Shown piece by piece: positions 8,122 to 51,211 of a stretch of DNA of 64,000 bases. The stretch is taken from NCBI RefSeq assembly GCF_900109375.1, contig NZ_FOAB01000004.1, positions 310,001-374,000 of the forward strand. Direction: 5' to 3'. The stretch's first letter is position 1, and each line of letters starts with the position of its first letter. A model generated the notes under the pieces. That model saw only the letters and a program-made list of their open reading frames with translations, was not told where the DNA came from and did no database searches. Made by a program: the position numbers and the translations under genes. Origin of the DNA: Aquimarina amphilecti (GTDB taxonomy: Bacteria > Bacteroidota > Bacteroidia > Flavobacteriales > Flavobacteriaceae).

Positions 8122-9660
8122 TTATTCTTCATTTTCTAATTGTTTCAGTTTATCGATTGCATTTTGATTTTCGGGATTCAGTTCTAATGATTTTTTAAAA
8201 CTTGCAATAGCATTTTTGTAATCTTTTTTATAAAGATAAGCTTCTGCTAAGCTATCATATAAATTAGCGGATGTTGGATATAAGTACAGCGCTAATAAAA
8301 ACAAGTTTATACCTTGTTCTATTTTTATAGGATTAAATGATAACTTAAGTCCTAGTGTATTTAGCATACCTTCTTCTAGCTTAAGTTTTGGATGTTTTAT
8401 TATTGTTTTTTTATAAAGTGAAATTAGGTTTCGATAATCATTGTGGAGTGCTATATCATTAAAATTCATATAGTCAAATACTTTCTGGATAGGTTTTTTC
8501 TTTTTTCTTGAAATCAGATTTTTCGAGCTGCTATTTTTAGTAAAATCTTCTTCAATCAATATTTTCGCGTCCGGATTGTTTTTTAAAGTAGCATTTAAAA
8601 AAAGTAGTGTTTGTTCTGATAGTAATTTATAAGAATACATGATTTTTTTATCATTTTTATCTTGCCTTTTATCTCTATTGGTAAATAATACTCCAAAGGA
8701 ACTAAAATAAGAATGAGAAAGGTCATGAAATTTATACCTATAGCGAGGACTATATTTAAGGGAATCATATAATTGAAATTCATAATTCAATTCGGCTGGG
8801 ATTTTATCGCTAATAAGAACTTTTTCAGGAATTTCTTTTTGAGCAAAATGTATATAGGGAATATCAAATTTATCTAAATTAAAATATGGAGATTTTTCTA
8901 GAACAGTGTACCGATATCTTTCAGTACCATCTAGACTAACTACTGCTTTAATGTTCCTGTTTTTCATAGCTGTTATCACATTGGATAATCCACCAAAACT
9001 AAAGCCCATAAGCGCTATCTTATCAGGGTCAATATTTTCATATTTATGTATTTCTTTTAAAAGGAATTCTACATCTTTTGATTGTGTTTCCAAGTCTTTT
9101 GTAGTTCCTCCTTCTAACAATCTAGTATCTGTTCCTCTTGATGGGCTTGATATTACAACAAAACCATTGCTTGCTAGATATTCGAATAATGTAAAGTTTT
9201 CGATAGAAGAGGCTTCATAACTAGGAGCATAAATAATAACCGGAACTATTTCTTTTAAAGAACGGGTATTGGTGAAGGCATTTACTTTTTCTGAAAGATG
9301 GGCTTGGTTTTGTGGCGTATTCGATAAGTAAGAAAACCAATCCAACAAAAACGAGTTTGGTAAATTATTCCATTCTTCCTCTTCCTTTAGAATTTCTAAA
9401 TAATTTAAAACAGATAATTGTTTTGAGTTTTTGTTATCAATGCTAGCTGGATACCACATGCTAATATGGATTGGTCTATGCGTAAACTGGTTATTGAACT
9501 CATTTTTGATTTGGTATGTTCTTGTACTATCAGTAGTTATATAATGTTTAAAACCTACTTTATATTGACCTTGATCTAAGTTGATTTCTTTTAAAGACGT
9601 CTGTGCATTTATAGAATATAATTGCAAAAATATTAAAATTATGACAGTAGTTATTCTCAT
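8122..9660 (-). CDS. Secreted alpha/beta hydrolase (dienelactone/PAF-acetylhydrolase-like) with C-terminal TPRs
   Basis: The 512-residue protein has a signal peptide ending INAQ. Residues about 60-340 are an alpha/beta hydrolase: VPVIIYAPSYEASS supplies the oxyanion strand, LMGFSFGG gives the nucleophile Ser221, and a conserved VVSLDG follows. The arrangement is close to platelet-activating-factor acetylhydrolase or dienelactone hydrolase-like proteins. Residues about 440-510 contain two tetratricopeptide repeats (ANLYDSLAEAYLYKKDYKNA is the clearest). The TPR tail suggests a docking role. The substrate is unknown. Confidence 0.8.
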   Translation of the reverse strand: MRITTVIILIFLQLYSINAQTSLKEINLDQGQYKVGFKHYITTDSTRTYQIKNEFNNQFTHRPIHISMWYPASIDNKNSKQLSVLNYLEILKEEEEWNNLPNSFLLDWFSYLSNTPQNQAHLSEKVNAFTNTRSLKEIVPVIIYAPSYEASSIENFTLFEYLASNGFVVISSPSRGTDTRLLEGGTTKDLETQSKDVEFLLKEIHKYENIDPDKIALMGFSFGGLSNVITAMKNRNIKAVVSLDGTERYRYTVLEKSPYFNLDKFDIPYIHFAQKEIPEKVLISDKIPAELNYEFQLYDSLKYSPRYRYKFHDLSHSYFSSFGVLFTNRDKRQDKNDKKIMYSYKLLSEQTLLFLNATLKNNPDAKILIEEDFTKNSSSKNLISRKKKKPIQKVFDYMNFNDIALHNDYRNLISLYKKTIIKHPKLKLEEGMLNTLGLKLSFNPIKIEQGINLFLLALYLYPTSANLYDSLAEAYLYKKDYKNAIASFKKSLELNPENQNAIDKLKQLENEE

Positions 9661-9792
9661 TGAGTTAGATATTAAGTGTTCATTTTTAAAGATTTAGTAA
9701 CTTAAAGAATGTTACACTTTAGATTTACAATTAACATTTAATAAATTAATCTAATAGGAAAATAAGCTTTATGTTTTATAGTAAACTAAACA

Positions 9793-10725
9793 TTATTTGA
9801 TTTTATAATCTTCAATTATTGTGCTAATACCTTTTTGATAAGAAGTTATTTTGAAATCAGGAAATCTATTTTTGAATTTAGAGGAATCAAAAATATTATC
9901 AATCTTATAACGAGGTAATAATTCCTTAGTTTCTCTTATGTTTTGATTAAAAATTGATCCTATGTTTAAAATTAGGGACCCTAAGACATTATACTCAATT
10001 TTTCTATCTAGTTGTATCGAGATTTGTTCAATAATTCCTTTATATGTTAGTCGATTATCATCGCAAGGAAGATGCCAAGTCTGACCATATGTTTCTGGAG
10101 TATTTCCAATTAAAGCCATTGCCTTACTGGCATCAGGGGTATAAATTAAAGTTCTTAAGACATTATCTTTTAGAAATACTTTAGGTGTTTTATTAGCTTT
10201 TAATGCATCAAAAATAAGTGTATTCGTTATTCCTTTTGTTTTATTTGGGCCATAAAACTCAGGTGCTCTGCATATTACCGCATTAACTTCTTTTTTCTTA
10301 ATTGCATTTAATAAAAATTCTACTGCTATTTTTTTTGCTTCTCCTTTTTTACCTTTTGGTTGTAGAGGAGTGTTTTCTTTTTGAATTTTGCTGTCTTGCG
10401 GATATGCATATGTGTTATCGAAGTAGACAAGTTTACAGTTATTTGTTTTGCAAGCTGCTATTACATTCTTCATGATTATAGGCCAATCTCTTAACCAAAT
10501 TTTAGATTGATAAGGAAGTCCTACAGTTAAATAAGCAGTTTTAGCATTTTCTAAAGCTTTATCAACATCTTTTTCTTTTAACAAGTCACCTTTGAATAAG
10601 ATGTCATTGGTGTGTACCTTTTTAGGATTTCGTCCAACAAGTTTAATTTCTTTTGTATAATTCGATCGTAATTCTTTGGCTAATTCCTCTCCAATTATTC
10701 CATTTGCACCTAAGATTACCTGCAT
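9793..10725 (-). CDS. NAD(P)-binding SDR-like epimerase/dehydratase
   Basis: The 310-residue cytosolic protein has an N-terminal Rossmann nucleotide-binding motif, GANGIIGEELAKEL (G-x-x-G-x-x-G, residues 6-12). Further family marks are FKGDLL (adenine-side acidic residue), AYLTVGLPY and the stretch VYFDNTYAYP, whose Tyr may be catalytic although the YxxxK signature is not clean. The EFYGPN motif occurs in extended or atypical SDR epimerases. The substrate cannot be told. Similar proteins are annotated NAD-dependent epimerase/dehydratase or NmrA-like. Confidence 0.8.
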   Translation of the reverse strand: MQVILGANGIIGEELAKELRSNYTKEIKLVGRNPKKVHTNDILFKGDLLKEKDVDKALENAKTAYLTVGLPYQSKIWLRDWPIIMKNVIAACKTNNCKLVYFDNTYAYPQDSKIQKENTPLQPKGKKGEAKKIAVEFLLNAIKKKEVNAVICRAPEFYGPNKTKGITNTLIFDALKANKTPKVFLKDNVLRTLIYTPDASKAMALIGNTPETYGQTWHLPCDDNRLTYKGIIEQISIQLDRKIEYNVLGSLILNIGSIFNQNIRETKELLPRYKIDNIFDSSKFKNRFPDFKITSYQKGISTIIEDYKIK

Positions 10726-10851: not shown

Positions 10852-11523
10852 TTATTTATATAACTGAGGTGTTGTAATTCCTTTGTCAAGAAACATTTGT
10901 TTGTTCATTTCAAAATGTGACTTTGTCATTTCATTATAATATTCCTTAAAAGCAGGAAGAGCATATTCTTTTCTTAGGCTATCTATATTTGTAGAATCTA
11001 GCAAACCATTTTTTGGTATCGCTTGTCCATTTTTATTGTATGTTAGTTGAGTGCCAAAACGTTGAGGTTTGTTTAAATTAACTTGAATCCTATCTTCTAA
11101 CATCGCATAACAATATTTGTCATTACTTCCGTTTTTAATTTCTTTCTCCATCGCTTTCAGCATTTTTTGTTGAAACTGGACATCGTTGTCTGCGTGCTGA
11201 ATTGGAAGCCAAAAACTTGTTGAAGCTTCTTGTCCAACTTTTCGCTCTCCGAGATAGCCATATTTTTTAAATAGTGTTTTAATTTTTTGTTGATTTATTA
11301 TCGCAACACTATCTCTTTGGTGTTCAAAAATCTCCCAAGCCTTTTTGTAGCCGTGCAATTCTCTTAAATCAGCCGGAGGTATACCAGCGTATTTTTGGTC
11401 AAGTATTTCAATTTCATTTAGTTCTGATATGATCTGTTTTTTATCTTCCTCAGAGATGTTTTTGTTATTTGTACAACTTGTAAGTGCTATGGTTATAACG
11501 AGTAATGAAATTATTTTTCTCAT
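10852..11523 (-). CDS. DUF6624 lipoprotein
   Basis: The 223-residue protein has a lipoprotein signal (ITIALTSC, Cys17). The body carries the DUF6624 marks: an N-terminal helical DQ-K region, KKYGYLGERKVG, the central HADNDVQFQQKML, YAMLEDRIQVN and KPQRFGTQLTY, then a C-terminal EYYNEM helix. The function of DUF6624 is unknown. His, Asp and Arg are the most conserved positions, which hints at an enzyme or a metal site (inference). A paralogue starts at position 229 of the window. Confidence 0.8.
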   Translation of the reverse strand: MRKIISLLVITIALTSCTNNKNISEEDKKQIISELNEIEILDQKYAGIPPADLRELHGYKKAWEIFEHQRDSVAIINQQKIKTLFKKYGYLGERKVGQEASTSFWLPIQHADNDVQFQQKMLKAMEKEIKNGSNDKYCYAMLEDRIQVNLNKPQRFGTQLTYNKNGQAIPKNGLLDSTNIDSLRKEYALPAFKEYYNEMTKSHFEMNKQMFLDKGITTPQLYK

Positions 11524-11544
11524 AGTTTATCGGAATTATGGATA

Positions 11545-11576
11545 TAACTAAAGACTTTAGATGAAATCTTTAGTTA
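11545..11576. repeat. 10-bp inverted repeat between two lipoprotein genes
   Basis: TAACTAAAGA (11545-11554) and TCTTTAGTTA (11567-11576) form a perfect stem with a 12-base loop. There is no U-tract after it on the minus strand, so it is not a classical terminator. It lies between the small lipoprotein gene and the DUF6624 gene and may be an operator or a weak 3' end. Confidence 0.35.
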
Positions 11577-11630
11577 CAGATTTTAGACTCTAGTTTTATT
11601 TAAGTTTATATTTTAGTAATTGAGAAGAAT

Positions 11631-46737: not shown

Positions 46738-47181
46738 TTACTTTCCTTGCCGCCTATTACGTAATTGTTTTAATAGACGTTTATTGAAATCCATTTCTGC
46801 TTTTACCAGTTTTAGGATTTTTTTATGCGGAATCACTTGTCTTAAATCTGAAATTAGTTTTTTACGAGTAAGGAATTTTTTTTCTTCTGCTTTAATGTAG
46901 TTGTTTAAAAATTCTTCTGATTCTTTTTCACTTAAGTTTTCGAAACCATTTGCCTCTTTTATTGCTTTAATTGACTTACGCTCCTTTCTTTTGAACCCTT
47001 CCATAGTCTCCTCATGCTCATTATAAATAGGCCAAAATTGTTGTGCTTCCTTGCTGCTCAAGTCTAGTTGTTCCGTTATGTAAGCTATTTTTAAAGCTTT
47101 TACTTTTCCTCTAGGTCCTCTTTGACCAAAAGAGAAGTTAATAGTAAAAACGATAATAAATAGTAATAATATCTTTTTCAT
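46738..47181 (-). CDS. Spy/CpxP-like periplasmic protein of an ECF sigma operon
   Basis: I use ATG 47181 (MKKILLLFIIVFTINFSFGQ, a clear signal peptide) rather than a start 33 bases upstream. The 147-residue protein is helical and basic, with ITEQLDLSSKEAQQFWPIYNEHEE followed by a second helical pair, as in the LTxxQ-type sensors often annotated sensor of ECF-type sigma factor in Bacteroidota. It is 10 bp after the acidic membrane protein gene and is the last gene of the sigma operon. Confidence 0.8.
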   Translation of the reverse strand: MKKILLLFIIVFTINFSFGQRGPRGKVKALKIAYITEQLDLSSKEAQQFWPIYNEHEETMEGFKRKERKSIKAIKEANGFENLSEKESEEFLNNYIKAEEKKFLTRKKLISDLRQVIPHKKILKLVKAEMDFNKRLLKQLRNRRQGK

Positions 47182-47191
47182 GTGTTCTTTT

Positions 47192-47833
47192 TTATTCAAC
47201 ATATATAATTTCATCCTCTAATTCTTCATCTGATAAATAGTTTTCTAATTCTTCATCAGTAATATCTTCGTCGCTAAATGTATTTGTTAGGTTAATTTCT
47301 TCGTCTAATAATTCTGCAATTTCAGAATCACTAAATTCTGCATTTCCTTCATCGAAATATTCTTGAATATCTACTATGTCAACAGAATCAAAACTAAAAG
47401 AATCTTGTCCTTTATTTATTGATATAGAAATTATAATAGCTATCATAGCAGCTATACCAGAGATATATAAAATGTTTTTCCGAGATAAAAGTGATATTAT
47501 TTTAGGTTCTTGATTGGTATTTATTGTTTTTTGTAGAATAGTGTTCTCTACATTTTCAAAGTATTTTTCAGGAGTGCTTAATCCCGTTTTGATACCACCA
47601 GCTAATATAGAAGATTCCTGATTCTCAGAATTTATGTTTTTAAATATATCGTGCTCAAGCTTATCAAAATAGTTTTCTGGAACTTTTAAACCAGAGTTAG
47701 CTTTATTGGGGAGTGCAGAATTGACTTGATCATCCATAGAAATTTTTTCAAAAAGTTTCTCTTCGAAATTTTCGAAATAATCACTGGGAACTTTAAATCC
47801 TTCTTTGTTGTTATGTAAATTATTATTTTTCAC
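47192..47833 (-). CDS. Single-pass membrane protein with three N-terminal repeats (anti-sigma candidate)
   Basis: The 213-residue protein has no signal peptide. The N-terminal half carries three repeats with a period of 36 residues (13-31, 49-67 and 85-103) of the form F/L-x-(V/T)-P-x-x-Y-F-(E/D)-x-x-E-x-x-(I/L)-x-x-x-I. One hydrophobic helix follows (about 120-140), and the last 70 residues are extremely acidic (many Asp/Glu). This fits the second gene of Bacteroidota sigma operons; an anti-sigma role is inferred from position and topology, not from a recognised domain. Confidence 0.65.
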   Translation of the reverse strand: MKNNNLHNNKEGFKVPSDYFENFEEKLFEKISMDDQVNSALPNKANSGLKVPENYFDKLEHDIFKNINSENQESSILAGGIKTGLSTPEKYFENVENTILQKTINTNQEPKIISLLSRKNILYISGIAAMIAIIISISINKGQDSFSFDSVDIVDIQEYFDEGNAEFSDSEIAELLDEEINLTNTFSDEDITDEELENYLSDEELEDEIIYVE

Positions 47834-47864
47834 TATATCTAGGACGCTGTAAATGTAAAAAGGT

Positions 47865-48410
47865 TTAATTAGTTTTTAAATATTCTTCGATTTTTTTGGA
47901 CGCTAAATGATAGGATGCTTTTAGTGCTCCTTCACTAGTTTCCAGAATTTCAGAGATTTCTTTATATTTTAATTCTTGAAAATATTTCATATTAAATACC
48001 TGTTGTTGTTTTTGAGGTAATAATGCTATTGCTTTTTGTAGCTTAAGTTGGATTTCATCTCCTTCAAAATATACATCGGCTTCTAAGTTTTCAATAAGTT
48101 GTTGTTGTAGTTCTTCATTACTAATATTATACTTTTTTGCTTTTTGATTCAAGAAGGTGATTGACTCATTGGTTGCAATTCTATACATCCAAGAATATAA
48201 TTTACTATCTCCTTTAAATTTTGAAATGTTTTTATATACTTTTATAAAGACATTTTGTAGGATATCATCGGTGTCGTCATGATTTTTGATCATATTTCTT
48301 ATGTGCCAATATAACCGTTGCTTATACATAGATACAAGCTTAGTAAAGGCATTATTTATGTCTTTATCTGTTTGTAACGCTATAAGTAAGTCCTCTTCTT
48401 GAATATTCAA
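47865..48410 (-). CDS. ECF-type RNA polymerase sigma factor (sigma-70 family)
   Basis: The 181-residue protein has sigma region 2 (about 20-95: DDTDDILQNVFIKVYKNISKFKGDSKLYSWMYRIATNESI) and region 4 (about 125-180: LPQKQQQVFNMKYFQELKYKEISEILETSEGALKASYHLA). There is no C-terminal extension. It leads a three-gene operon with an acidic membrane protein (31-bp gap) and a Spy-like periplasmic protein. The cue it answers is unknown. Confidence 0.93.
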   Translation of the reverse strand: MNIQEEDLLIALQTDKDINNAFTKLVSMYKQRLYWHIRNMIKNHDDTDDILQNVFIKVYKNISKFKGDSKLYSWMYRIATNESITFLNQKAKKYNISNEELQQQLIENLEADVYFEGDEIQLKLQKAIALLPQKQQQVFNMKYFQELKYKEISEILETSEGALKASYHLASKKIEEYLKTN

Positions 48411-48580
48411 TAGTAAATAATGATTTAAGTAATGATTAGTATACGCTAGTTTACTATTAGACTAAAATAACAAAAAAAGGTTTAATATGATATTGAATTA
48501 TTTTCTTTGTAAGAATTTGTAGGAATAAATATATTATTTCTGCTAAAACAATATATTTTTTGGACAAAATACACAATAAA

Positions 48581-48611
48581 TTTGTTTTATTAAAAAAATG
48601 TATTATCTTTA
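48581..48611 (+). promoter_or_regulatory. Promoter of small-RNA copy 1
   Basis: TTTG at 48581-48584 and TATCTTTA at 48604-48611 are separated by exactly 19 bp, as in the other two copies. Confidence 0.7.
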
Positions 48612-48616
48612 CATTG

Positions 48617-48750
48617 TAATTTAGAAAAGATACTTTCACATTTTTAAAATGTAGAATTCAAAAAAATAATTTTAGTTTTTATTTTATATTAAGCCCCTAT
48701 ATTAAGATGATTTGTTTCAATTAAAAGAGTGTTTCCGCACTCTTTTTTTT
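48617..48750 (+). ncRNA. Candidate small RNA, copy 1 of 3 (most diverged)
   Basis: The 5' end is set about 6 bp after the -7 box, and the 3' end at the U-run of the intrinsic terminator. The RNA is about 134 nt. It shares ATTAAGCCCCTA and TTAAGATGATTTG (48689-48714) with the other copies and ends in AGAGTG, loop TTTCCG, CACTCT and eight T. Its 5' hairpin differs from copies 2 and 3 (ACATTTT/AAAATGT without a C-run). In the terminator stem one pair is U-A here and C-G in the other copies, a compensatory change. No conserved frame exists. Confidence 0.7.
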
Positions 48751-48875
48751 GTTTTCATTGTTTTTTTAGTTTCTTACTTTTTTATTTTTAAAGTAAGAAA
48801 AATACTACTTTATTGTTATTTTTGATTTGATTTTTATGTTTTAATACATTTTTTATAGATAAAAAGCATATAAAG

Positions 48876-48906
48876 TTTGCGTGTTTACAAAATTATAGTA
48901 TCTTTA
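48876..48906 (+). promoter_or_regulatory. Promoter of small-RNA copy 2
   Basis: TTTG at 48876-48879 and TATCTTTA at 48899-48906 are 19 bp apart. Confidence 0.75.
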
Positions 48907-48911
48907 CATTG

Positions 48912-49042
48912 TAAATAAGAGTTAACGCTTTCATTTTCCCCAAGATGAAAGATTTTAATAAAAATGAGTTTTAATTTTAGATTAAGCCCCTAAATTAAGA
49001 TGATTTGTGTGAAGAAAAAGAGCGTGGAGACGCTCTTTTTTG
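48912..49042 (+). ncRNA. Candidate small RNA, copy 2 of 3
   Basis: A predicted 131-nt RNA. Hairpin 1 is CTTTCAT (48928-48934), loop TTTCCCCAAG, ATGAAAG (48945-48951). Hairpin 2 is weak: TTAATTTTAG and CTAAATTAA pair with one bulge around ATTAAGCCC (about 48971-48998), so a C-run is again exposed. The terminator is AGAGCGT, loop GGAG, ACGCTCT (49019-49036) and six U. The last 65 nt are identical to copy 3 except for one base in the terminator loop. Confidence 0.8.
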
Positions 49043-49190
49043 TTTATATGTATATCTGTCCTCATGTACTATAATTGAATAATAAGTATTTGAAAAGTAA
49101 TTTAAAAGTAGGTTTTTACTTACTCTTTTATTGATTTATGTGTTTTTAAATGTTAAAAAGTTAGTTTTTATAGATAAAATACATTTTTTG

Positions 49191-49221
49191 TTTGCGTTAT
49201 ACAAAAATAGTTCTATATTTA
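49191..49221 (+). promoter_or_regulatory. Promoter of small-RNA copy 3
   Basis: TTTG at 49191-49194 and TATATTTA at 49214-49221 are again 19 bp apart. The stretch upstream (TTTTTATAGATAAAA, from about 49165) is shared with copy 2 and may be an UP-like element. Confidence 0.75.
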
Positions 49222-49226
49222 CACTG

Positions 49227-49356
49227 TGAAAATGAGTTAGTACTTTCATTTCCCCCAAAATGAAGGTTTTTATAAAAGTGAGTTTTAATTTTAGATTAAG
49301 CCCCTAAATTAAGATGATTTGTGTGAAGAAAAAGAGCGTGTAGACGCTCTTTTTTG
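49227..49356 (+). ncRNA. Candidate small RNA, copy 3 of 3
   Basis: A predicted 130-nt RNA. Hairpin 1 is CTTTCAT (49243-49249), loop TTCCCCCAAA, ATGAAGG (49260-49266), where a U-A pair of copy 2 becomes a U-G wobble. Hairpin 2 with the AAGCCCC loop and the terminator AGAGCGT, GTAG, ACGCTCT (49333-49350) follow. Because an A-run precedes the terminator, it can also end the ABC transporter transcript that comes in on the minus strand (stop at 49385). Confidence 0.8.
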
Positions 49357-49384
49357 TTTTATAAATATTTGATAATCATATGAT

Positions 49385-51211
49385 TTAGTTGTCAAATGAT
49401 TGCATGGTAACTAGTTTTTGATAAGCTCCATTCTTAGCAATAAGTTCTTCGTGAGTTCCTTGCTCTACAATACGCCCTTTTTGCATTACAACGATTAAAT
49501 CAGAATTTTGTATAGTTGATAGCCTATGTGCAATAACGATACTTGTTCTATTTTTCATCATATTTTCTAAGGCAGATTGAACTAAACGTTCACTTTCTGT
49601 ATCCAAAGCTGAGGTAGCTTCATCCAAAATCATAATAGGTGGATTTTTTAATACAGCTCTTGCGATCGAAAGTCTTTGTTTTTGACCTCCACTTAGCTTG
49701 TCTCCACTATCTCCAATTACTGAATTAAGCCCTTCTGGTTTTTCTTTTACAAATTCCCAAGCATTGGCAACTTTTAAGGCGTTAATAATTTCTTCATCGG
49801 TTGCATCTTCCTTACCTATTAGTAAATTGTTTTTGATAGTATCATGAAACAAAATAGAATCTTGTGTAACTAATCCCATTAAGCCTCTAAGAGAATTTTT
49901 AGTAATATCTTTAATATCAACTCCATCAATTTTTATAGCACCTTTATTTACATCATAAAATCTAGTGACCAAGTTAGCTATGGTAGATTTACCACTACCG
50001 GATTGGCCAACTAAAGCTACCGATTTTCCTTTAGGGACAGTAAGATTGAAATCGTTTAAAACATATTCATCTTCATATTTAAATGATATGTTTTCTAATC
50101 GAATGTCTGTAGCAAAGTCGTTTTTTACTGCAGCTTTTGGTTTATCTTGTAATGGTGAATTTGTATTAAGAATTTCTAATACACGCTCCGCAGCAGCGTT
50201 TCCTCTTTTTACTCCGTAACTTGCTTTAGAAATAGCTTTGGCCGGAGTTAGAATATTATAAGCAAGGCCCATATAAACAATAAAAAGACCTGGATCTAAT
50301 GATTTTTCAACGAGTACCATTTGACCACCATACCATAATAGTATAGCTATTACAGTAATTCCTAAAAATTCGCTTGTAGGCGATGCTAGGTTTTGCCTAT
50401 TTAATAGTGAATTCGAAAAATTGTAAAACCTTAATGTAGATTCTTGAAACTTTTTCCCAAAAATATTCTCGGCATTAAACCCTTTAATAACTTTTAATCC
50501 TCCTAACGTTTCCTCTACTATGGATAGAAAGTACCCTTGCTCTTTCTGAACTTTATCAGAGTGTTTTTTAAGTTTTTTTCCGATTAAGGAAATTAAAAAA
50601 CCTGAAACTGGAATAAAAATAAAAACAAATATCGTTAGCTTCACACTAATTAATAACATCGCACATATAGTGAATATAATCATTAGCGGTTCTCTTACTA
50701 TCAATTCTAATATAGATAAAAAGGAATGTTGAATCTCCAATACGTCTGTAGAAATTCTGGCGATAGTGTCTCCTTTTCTTTTTTCTGAAAAGTAAGAAAG
50801 AGGAAGATCTACTGTTTTTTGATATAATTCATTTCTAATATCTTTTAATACTCCATTTCTTAAAAACGTAATGAAATACATAGCTAAATAGCTAAAGATA
50901 TTTTTCATAAAAAACATAGTAATGACTAATACAACCATAAATAGGAGTACATCATCATTTCCTTGTTCTGCTTTTTGAGTAACAAAATAGTTAAGATAAC
51001 TTTCCGCGTATTCTCTAATTTTTAAAATACCATTCCATTCAGGCTCTTGACTAACTCTTTTAGTCTTGTCGAAAAGAACATTTAACATTGGGAATAAAGA
51101 TACCATTGCCAGTGTTCCGAATAGCGCATAGAAAATATTTGATATGATATTTAATATTGCATATATTTTATAAGGTTTCGCAAAGCGAAGGATTTGTTTA
51201 AAGTAATTCAT
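49385..51211 (-). CDS. ABC transporter, fused permease and ATPase (MsbA/lipid-exporter type)
   Basis: The 608-residue half-transporter has six transmembrane helices in residues 15-330 and a nucleotide-binding domain at about 365-600: Walker A VGQSGSGKST, Q-loop VTQDSILFHD, signature LSGGQKQRL, Walker B IMILDEATSALD and the H-loop VIAHRLST. It exports lipids or other hydrophobic compounds as a homodimer. It lies 31 bp downstream of the phosphoglucomutase gene, on the same strand. Its substrate cannot be told. Confidence 0.9.
   Translation of the reverse strand: MNYFKQILRFAKPYKIYAILNIISNIFYALFGTLAMVSLFPMLNVLFDKTKRVSQEPEWNGILKIREYAESYLNYFVTQKAEQGNDDVLLFMVVLVITMFFMKNIFSYLAMYFITFLRNGVLKDIRNELYQKTVDLPLSYFSEKRKGDTIARISTDVLEIQHSFLSILELIVREPLMIIFTICAMLLISVKLTIFVFIFIPVSGFLISLIGKKLKKHSDKVQKEQGYFLSIVEETLGGLKVIKGFNAENIFGKKFQESTLRFYNFSNSLLNRQNLASPTSEFLGITVIAILLWYGGQMVLVEKSLDPGLFIVYMGLAYNILTPAKAISKASYGVKRGNAAAERVLEILNTNSPLQDKPKAAVKNDFATDIRLENISFKYEDEYVLNDFNLTVPKGKSVALVGQSGSGKSTIANLVTRFYDVNKGAIKIDGVDIKDITKNSLRGLMGLVTQDSILFHDTIKNNLLIGKEDATDEEIINALKVANAWEFVKEKPEGLNSVIGDSGDKLSGGQKQRLSIARAVLKNPPIMILDEATSALDTESERLVQSALENMMKNRTSIVIAHRLSTIQNSDLIVVMQKGRIVEQGTHEELIAKNGAYQKLVTMQSFDN

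Follow-up and report, generated by a model that had tools for sequence, protein, structure and literature searches.

The window analysed in the present study, a stretch of 64,000 nucleotides from Aquimarina amphilecti, contains three tandem promoter-RNA-terminator units on the plus strand, which can be read directly from TTTG boxes at 48581-48584, 48876-48879 and 49191-49194. The units lie in a gap of 974 bp between the start of an ECF sigma factor gene (48410) and the stop of an ABC transporter gene (49385), and because both flanking genes are on the minus strand, the array is divergent from the sigma operon and convergent on the ABC gene. After the ECF sigma gene (window 46738-48410), genes for a 213-aa probable anti-sigma protein and then for a 158-aa secreted protein, which we take to resemble CpxP/Spy, are observed. 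Neither of these two proteins gave a match in Pfam, and in many relatives their genes are again found next to the array. The features of the locus are as follows.

47865..48410, minus strand: ECF-type sigma factor gene, conserved neighbour (Pfam Sigma70_r2 and Sigma70_r4_2; synteny)
48509..48523, plus strand: copy 1, paired half-sites GTAAG-N5-GTAGG, the direct-repeat form of the candidate operator (sequence, motif class)
48562..48573, plus strand: copy 1, proximal conserved box GGACAAAATACA (conserved upstream in the family)
48581..48611, plus strand: copy 1, promoter TTTG-N19-TATCTTTA (sequence)
48616..48750, plus strand: copy 1, the diverged one, predicted small RNA (5' end placed by the box position)
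48702..48724, plus strand: copy 1, conserved 3' stretch in a variant form (alignment)
48723..48750, plus strand: copy 1, terminator hairpin and U-run (sequence, folding)
48793..48808, plus strand: copy 2, candidate operator GTAAG-N6-ACTAC (motif scan)
48857..48868, plus strand: copy 2, proximal box AGATAAAAAGCA (sequence, upstream conservation)
48876..48906, plus strand: copy 2, promoter TTTG-N19-TATCTTTA (sequence)
48911..49041, plus strand: copy 2, predicted small RNA (fold z -3.8, covariance-model match)
48928..48951, plus strand: copy 2, helix 1 with C-rich loop (folding, covariation test)
48968..49001, plus strand: copy 2, helix 2 with loop AUUAAGCCC (folding, covariation tests)
48995..49017, plus strand: copy 2, candidate seed UUAAGAUGAUUUGUGUGAAGAAA (near-invariance, start-codon complementarity)
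49015..49041, plus strand: copy 2, terminator (sequence, folding)
49108..49123, plus strand: copy 3, candidate operator GTAGG-N6-CTTAC (motif scan)
49172..49183, plus strand: copy 3, proximal box AGATAAAATACA (sequence, upstream conservation)
49191..49221, plus strand: copy 3, promoter TTTG-N19-TATATTTA (sequence)
49226..49355, plus strand: copy 3, predicted small RNA (fold z -5.5, covariance-model match)
49243..49266, plus strand: copy 3, helix 1 with C-rich loop (folding, covariation test)
49282..49315, plus strand: copy 3, helix 2 (folding, covariation test)
49309..49331, plus strand: copy 3, candidate seed (near-invariance, start-codon complementarity)
49329..49355, plus strand: copy 3, terminator, 30 bp from the stop of the convergent ABC gene (sequence, folding)
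49385..51211, minus strand: ABC transporter gene, convergent conserved neighbour (Pfam; synteny)

The promoter spacer is 19 bases in each window copy and is followed by TATCTTTA in copies 1 (48604-48611) and 2 (48899-48906) and by TATATTTA in copy 3 (49214-49221). The repeat finder gave unit steps of 295 and 315 bp (family D2), and a downstream repeat family (D1) showed steps of 293 and 314 bp. A hairpin with a U-run closes each unit, and the terminator ends near 48750, 49041 and 49355 lead to predicted RNAs of approximately 130-135 nt. Across 111 nt of the 3' end, identity to copy 2 was 92% for copy 3 and 68% for copy 1. Direct reading and the repeat finder have therefore borne out the layout given in a preliminary description of this DNA, namely three tandem units at these steps, a constant 19-bp spacing between TTTG and the second box, about 130 nt ending in an intrinsic terminator, a more diverged copy 1 and a 974-bp gap divergent from an ECF sigma operon. 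Compared with shuffles, the folding energies were more favourable, with z values of -2.1 for copy 1, -3.8 for copy 2 and -5.5 for copy 3. Chance was excluded by four further copies elsewhere in the genome (E 8e-47 to 2e-53) and by matches throughout the genus.

With a 180-base query taken from copy 2, seven copies were observed in the genome of the window, comprising the three in the window and four on contig C9. An exact pattern of the conserved core was found in eight stretches in named records, all from Aquimarina, including A. latercula DSM 2041. In this type strain, the array is present in syntenic position. The profile search yielded 191 hits, many of which represent one copy in overlapping loci, and after weak, edge-cut and identical hits had been dropped, 127 copies were aligned. 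A covariance model (R1), with which copy 1 of the window scores 54 bits, matched 65 of the 66 Aquimarina genomes at E<=0.01 and all of those of good quality (58/58). The 284 matches in the genus at this threshold were distributed at 1-13 per genome (median 4), with a single match in 14 genomes and at least two homologous genes in 51 of the 66. In the one genome missed by R1 (G031), a weak match (E 0.19), the sequence of which appears related, was found beside an rsmB-like gene; such a gene also flanks several single-copy members. Judged by sequence, the units of the array are siblings of one genus-wide, real RNA family.

At E<=0.001, R1 matched none of 394 genomes from 236 other Flavobacteriaceae genera, a search in which distant relatives outside the genus might be missed because of stricter filters and because eight candidates were scored per genome among those shown. 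With a broader model (R2), weak matches (E 5e-4 to 0.017) were obtained outside Aquimarina in eight genomes from seven genera; these were rejected on inspection because most resemble ordinary terminators behind genes, with the conserved core and the neighbour genes of the window both absent; this judgement was made from the sequence in all eight cases and from ORF lists in three. None of the 4227 Rfam families matched at the gathering score in the whole window, and in 48400-49500 the lowest E value was 0.13, all 18 matches listed being far under their gathering scores. A pattern scan of viral contigs gave no match, and no report of an Aquimarina small RNA was found among the titles and abstracts of the open-licence PMC papers listed. 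The reading of the units as a duplicated small-RNA family is upheld by the seven copies and by the genus-wide matches of R1, and the suggestion of novelty is supported by the Rfam result. Apparently, this is an undescribed family of a known sibling kind, for which the comparison with FopS and Rfp18 was made by description only.

In the predicted RNA, a 5' tail is followed by helix 1, the loop of which is C-rich, by helix 2, which has AUUAAGCCC as its loop, and then by a near-invariant stretch and the terminator. In a 30-row alignment that left out the most divergent copies, 99.3% of cells are paired under the three-helix structure, and 6 of 30 pairs were changed on both sides (two in helix 1, four in the terminator and none in helix 2); shuffles averaged 3.0 such pairs and reached six in 1/500. 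In a 36-row set, the rows of which were chosen with R1 and include divergent copies, 11 of 18 pairs were changed on both sides (nine in the terminator and two in helix 2), compared with a shuffle average of 5.7, and 11 was reached in 0/500. In this set, 9% of cells are unpaired, in part because the terminator is misaligned in two rows from locus L045. MAFFT aligned both sets on sequence alone, with the structure drawn from the same sequences, and RNAalifold, applied to a 45-row alignment, returned the terminator only, helices 1 and 2 being tested afterwards as named structures. Covariation across relatives, which the preliminary description had singled out for checking, is present, as the terminator stem and helix 1 are backed by compensatory changes; helix 2 is backed mainly by conservation. 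The family, its conservation, the terminator with helix 1 and the upstream motif described below were established by computation.

A TTG precedes the TAnnTTT box by 16-23 bases in 123 of the 127 copies, and the spacer is 19 in 105 of them. For Flavobacterium psychrophilum, the available part of the source gives a flavobacterial sigma-A consensus of TAnnTTTG at -12 to -5 and a CGT box in ECF-type promoters (PMC9723704). Since the -10 box of the RNAs fits the sigma-A consensus at -12 to -5, the starts are predicted near 48616, 48911 and 49226. Control of the RNAs by the ECF sigma factor was considered because of the neighbour gene and is unproven, as the box fits TAnnTTTG better than the CGT box. 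Further upstream, a proximal box, AGATAAAATRCA, lies approximately 50 bp before the start in the multi-copy and most single-copy members. Paired GTARG half-sites were observed upstream of 85 of the 127 copies (57 inverted and 29 direct) against a base-shuffle mean of 0.06, a contrast that is not a probability because the copies are related. Measured from the TTTG box, 53 of the 57 inverted pairs begin 82-85 bp upstream, within poorly conserved surroundings, and paired half-sites were absent from all ten single-copy loci examined. In the genome of the window, the strict inverted operator was found at copies 2 and 3 and at C9:385784, the direct form at copy 1, where a good inverted form was not found, and degenerate forms only at the remaining three of the seven copies. 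Across 864 kb of this genome, the strict motif gave 5 matches compared with 4.4 expected (60 shuffles), three of which are upstream of these RNAs; the motif is neither rarer nor commoner than chance in this sample. From these candidate sites, we infer that a regulator might act through GTARG.

The neighbourhood of the RNA genes is widely shared. The ECF sigma gene or the ABC gene of the window recurs next to copies in 44 of the 60 genomes mapped (out of 66), and both genes do so in 32. In five genomes (G005, G007, G057, G082 and G031), the RNA adjoins the rsmB-like gene (a name given by resemblance); this gene is located approximately 3 kb from the array in the window. All three neighbours were unseen in 11 of the 60 genomes, some of these loci being short. 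Tandem numbers vary between genomes, e.g. seven at locus L043 and eleven in genome G067, and dispersed copies recur next to a DUF456-like gene (L003, L045 and L096; by resemblance). In the genome of the window, locus L039 (G000:C9:383500-397500) contains three copies, at 1928-2099, 2270-2434 and 11429-11603. This distribution fits a history in which an old single locus might have been amplified in tandem, with copies dispersing later.

Several observations were also made on the surroundings of the dispersed copies. By resemblance, those at L039 flank two TonB-receptor-like genes and a FecI/FecR-like pair, and a peptide of 83 aa encoded nearby, which has a GG leader and a high content of Cys and Gly, is bacteriocin-like. 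At L045 (G003:C1:807500-820500), four RNA copies are spread across 9 kb among unrelated genes, and a transposase-like gene (8752-10230) stands immediately before one of them, which is a hint at copy dispersal.

Five segments of the RNA were tested against 667 gene starts of its own genome. For the near-invariant stretch, UUAAGAUGAUUUGUGUGAAGAAA, the mean of the 15 best sites was -16.5 kcal/mol, compared with -13.6 inside genes and -13.9 for shuffles, of which 0/40 reached -16.5. The helix 2 loop was matched by 2/40 shuffles at gene starts and was stronger inside genes (-14.4 vs -13.2), and an excess at gene starts was absent for the helix 1 loop (35/40 shuffles reached it), the 5' end (21/40) and the spacer between helices 1 and 2 (16/40). 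With dinucleotide shuffles, the stretch gave -16.8 vs -13.7 in its own genome (0/60) and was reached by 3/60 in each of two relatives, G003 and G020, and by 5/60 in the outgroup G102, in which R1 has no match. Counted by gene at <= -14 kcal/mol within -35..+15, 13 of 667 genes (1.95%) were found in the own genome, compared with 0.46% for dinucleotide shuffles (0/40), and both sampled contigs agreed. This excess was strongest from -70 to +15, smaller within -10..+80 (1/40, 2/40) and absent at -200..-150 and +100..+150, with lesser excesses inside genes at +30..+80 (2/40) and +200..+250 (4/40). The two other Aquimarina samples gave 5/309 genes (reached by 4/40 shuffles) and 5/321 (1/40). Part of the signal may be composition, since the outgroup without the RNA gave 3/321 genes within -35..+15, i.e. 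0.93% vs 0.55% (11/40). The complementarity to start codons is clear in one genome and suggestive in two relatives, is not clear in the outgroup and is in part compositional. The pairing with targets is statistical only, and the earlier designation of the RNAs as trans-acting is supported by this statistical excess at start codons, which is clear in one genome only.

Among the 13 best-pairing genes, 8 have a signal-peptide-like start by a crude rule, compared with 33% of all genes. When the complement of the 16-base core was sought in the whole genome at up to two mismatches, 10 non-self matches were found, compared with 4 for the reversed pattern; only one of the 10 lies just before a start codon, and the other nine are elsewhere. 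The best site is complementary at 18 of 19 positions and lies 3-21 bases before a glycoside hydrolase 65 (GH65) gene (-21 to -3). This gene is present in 16 of the 57 genus genomes searched, and among the 16 orthologues, some with crudely placed starts, a site with at most one mismatch was found only in the own genome; two further orthologue sites would pair with a one-base bulge. Thus, the site is poorly conserved. The GH65 gene, assigned by Pfam, is at L189 (G000:C9:99000-112000), an apparent alpha-glucan locus with two LacI-like regulators and GH3-like and GH13-like enzymes (by resemblance). In addition, perfect complementarity over 11 bases, ending at the start codon, was observed for a SusC-like gene (by resemblance, and also matched by PF13715), and in two genomes a comparable site was found at a gene for an ABC-F-like ATPase (by resemblance).

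TonB/SusC receptors were considered as a target class, which is unsupported, as they were not clearly enriched. From 75 Pfam matches, 30 loci were fetched, of which 11 were unplaceable and 19 were placed, and 2 of these 19 pair at <= -12 kcal/mol (10.5%, compared with 7.8% of all genes); the five best receptor sites were reached by 4/300 shuffles. Receptor-like or secreted proteins selected with a crude regular expression had good sites in 4/6 cases in the own genome, 0/2 in G003, 0/1 in G020 and 0/2 in the outgroup.

Herein, we propose that these genes encode sibling trans-acting small RNAs that repress translation by pairing at start codons, a reading that we rate at an even chance or marginally better. 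Each copy would have its own housekeeping-type Bacteroidota promoter, putative protein-binding sites upstream and an intrinsic terminator, producing an RNA of approximately 130 nt. A common regulator may switch the copies together through the GTARG sites, so that copy number would set the dose. The stretch UUAAGAUGAUUUGUGUGAAGAAA would pair with mRNAs across the start codon or immediately ahead of it, and the initiation of translation would be blocked; candidate targets include the GH65 gene and some outer-membrane or secreted proteins. Transcription, the regulator, the co-regulation of the copies and the repression are what we infer. A point against this pairing model is that the near-invariant stretch is itself predicted to be weakly paired (34% unpaired), with the C-rich loops open (84-89% unpaired).

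The same prediction favours action in trans through the C-rich loops (UUUCCCC, UAAGCCCC), as in small RNAs whose C-rich loops are exposed, with the 3' stretch kept for protein binding or stability. These loops are conserved in most copies, and that of helix 2 beats most shuffles at gene starts (2/40 reach its top-15 mean). However, it pairs better inside genes, gene starts show no excess for the helix 1 loop, and ATTTAGGGGCTTA, allowing one mismatch, has 3 non-self matches in the whole genome compared with 7 for the reversed pattern. Moreover, copy 1 and some divergent members lack CCCC in the region of helix 1, and we consider this mode of action unlikely. The repetition of CCCC in two open loops of most RNAs, the high copy number and the near-constant 3' half in the 127 copies would also be consistent with a decoy that sequesters an RNA-binding protein or RNA polymerase in a Csr/Rsm- or 6S-like manner. 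This titration is distinctly improbable, as no 6S or other Rfam match was obtained at curated thresholds, and an RRM_1 protein was not found in this genome in a search for RRM_1 alone.

In favour of antitoxin RNAs of a type I toxin-antitoxin locus are the tandem copies with antisense ORFs, which start with ATGAAAG opposite helix 1 in 93 of the 127 copies. However, the length of this antisense frame varies between 6 and 53 codons. On the sense strand, the starts that most copies share also lead to frames of variable length, the longest entering the terminator, and a conserved small toxin ORF, overlapping or antisense, was not found in the 127 copies. No conserved reading frame was present on either strand in these copies, in agreement with the earlier statement that the units have none in common. 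Thus, we give very little credence to antitoxin RNAs or to mRNAs of very small proteins. In the window, minus-strand antisense ORFs that start opposite helix 1 have 60 codons in copy 1 (48457-48639) and 40 codons in copy 3 (49136-49258). A mobile or simple repeat, to which the multiple dispersed copies might point, or a set of mRNA leaders, an alternative already named in the preliminary description, is scarcely credible. The shared neighbours in 44 of the 60 mapped genomes and the conserved promoters and upstream sites argue against a mobile repeat, and against leaders, each window unit ends in a terminator, the next gene is convergent, and no same-strand gene follows the array. Synteny and gene order have largely refuted this reading.

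Repression by pairing at start codons may be extended to a broader hypothesis, which we regard as doubtful, that of a genus-specific amplified regulon. An ancestral single small-RNA gene, still single-copy in several lineages, might have gained the far-upstream operator and multiplied to as many as 13 copies, and one regulator would then deliver a large dose of RNA against many start-codon regions without an RRM-type partner. A multi-copy family in 65 of 66 Aquimarina genomes would give the marine Flavobacteriaceae a tractable small-RNA system, and the upstream motif could lead to the regulator of the RNAs. As the copy number varies from 1 to 13 among relatives, the question of why bacteria keep many copies of a small RNA becomes directly testable, and in Bacteroidota, FopS provides a worked example.

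Sibling small RNAs have been described in several other bacteria. LhrC of Listeria comprises seven sibling copies (LhrC1-7), in which C-rich loops are the seeds. The present genome likewise has seven siblings with C-rich loops, but it is the 3' stretch that gives the stronger target signal. FopS/GibS of Bacteroides, as described in the accessible part of a report that also names the LhrC family, are sibling small RNAs in 12-15 copies with housekeeping-type promoters, and FopS is approximately 65-70 nt long, has its seed in the 5' part and binds the RRM protein RbpB (PMC11697453). On this partial account, the likeness includes multi-copy siblings in Bacteroidota (12-15 copies of FopS, 1-13 matches per genome here), start-codon pairing (shown in FopS, predicted here), housekeeping-type promoters in both and an outer-membrane transporter among the FopS targets and among the candidates here. 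In contrast, the Aquimarina RNA of 130-135 nt is about twice as long, with its candidate seed next to the terminator, and the partner type of FopS was not found, since RRM_1 (PF00076) gave 0 matches in the genome of the window and matched 2 of 14 control genomes, including Bacteroides ihuae. Likened by description, FopS is perhaps nearest in function, with two of its features not found here. In the same bacterial family, Rfp18 of F. psychrophilum is, in the part of the source available, also a structured intergenic small RNA with predicted mRNA targets, but it is one RNA, conserved within the genus Flavobacterium, and is likened here by description (PMC9723704). The csRNAs of Streptococcus, in the available text, comprise 2-6 siblings, some tandem and others distal, under the Cia system (PMC4211561). 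They belong to another phylum, and their sequences were compared through Rfam alone. Nevertheless, they share the combination of tandem and distal siblings and are controlled by one regulatory system, as the shared upstream motif suggests for Aquimarina, and on this account the csRNAs are the nearest in organisation.
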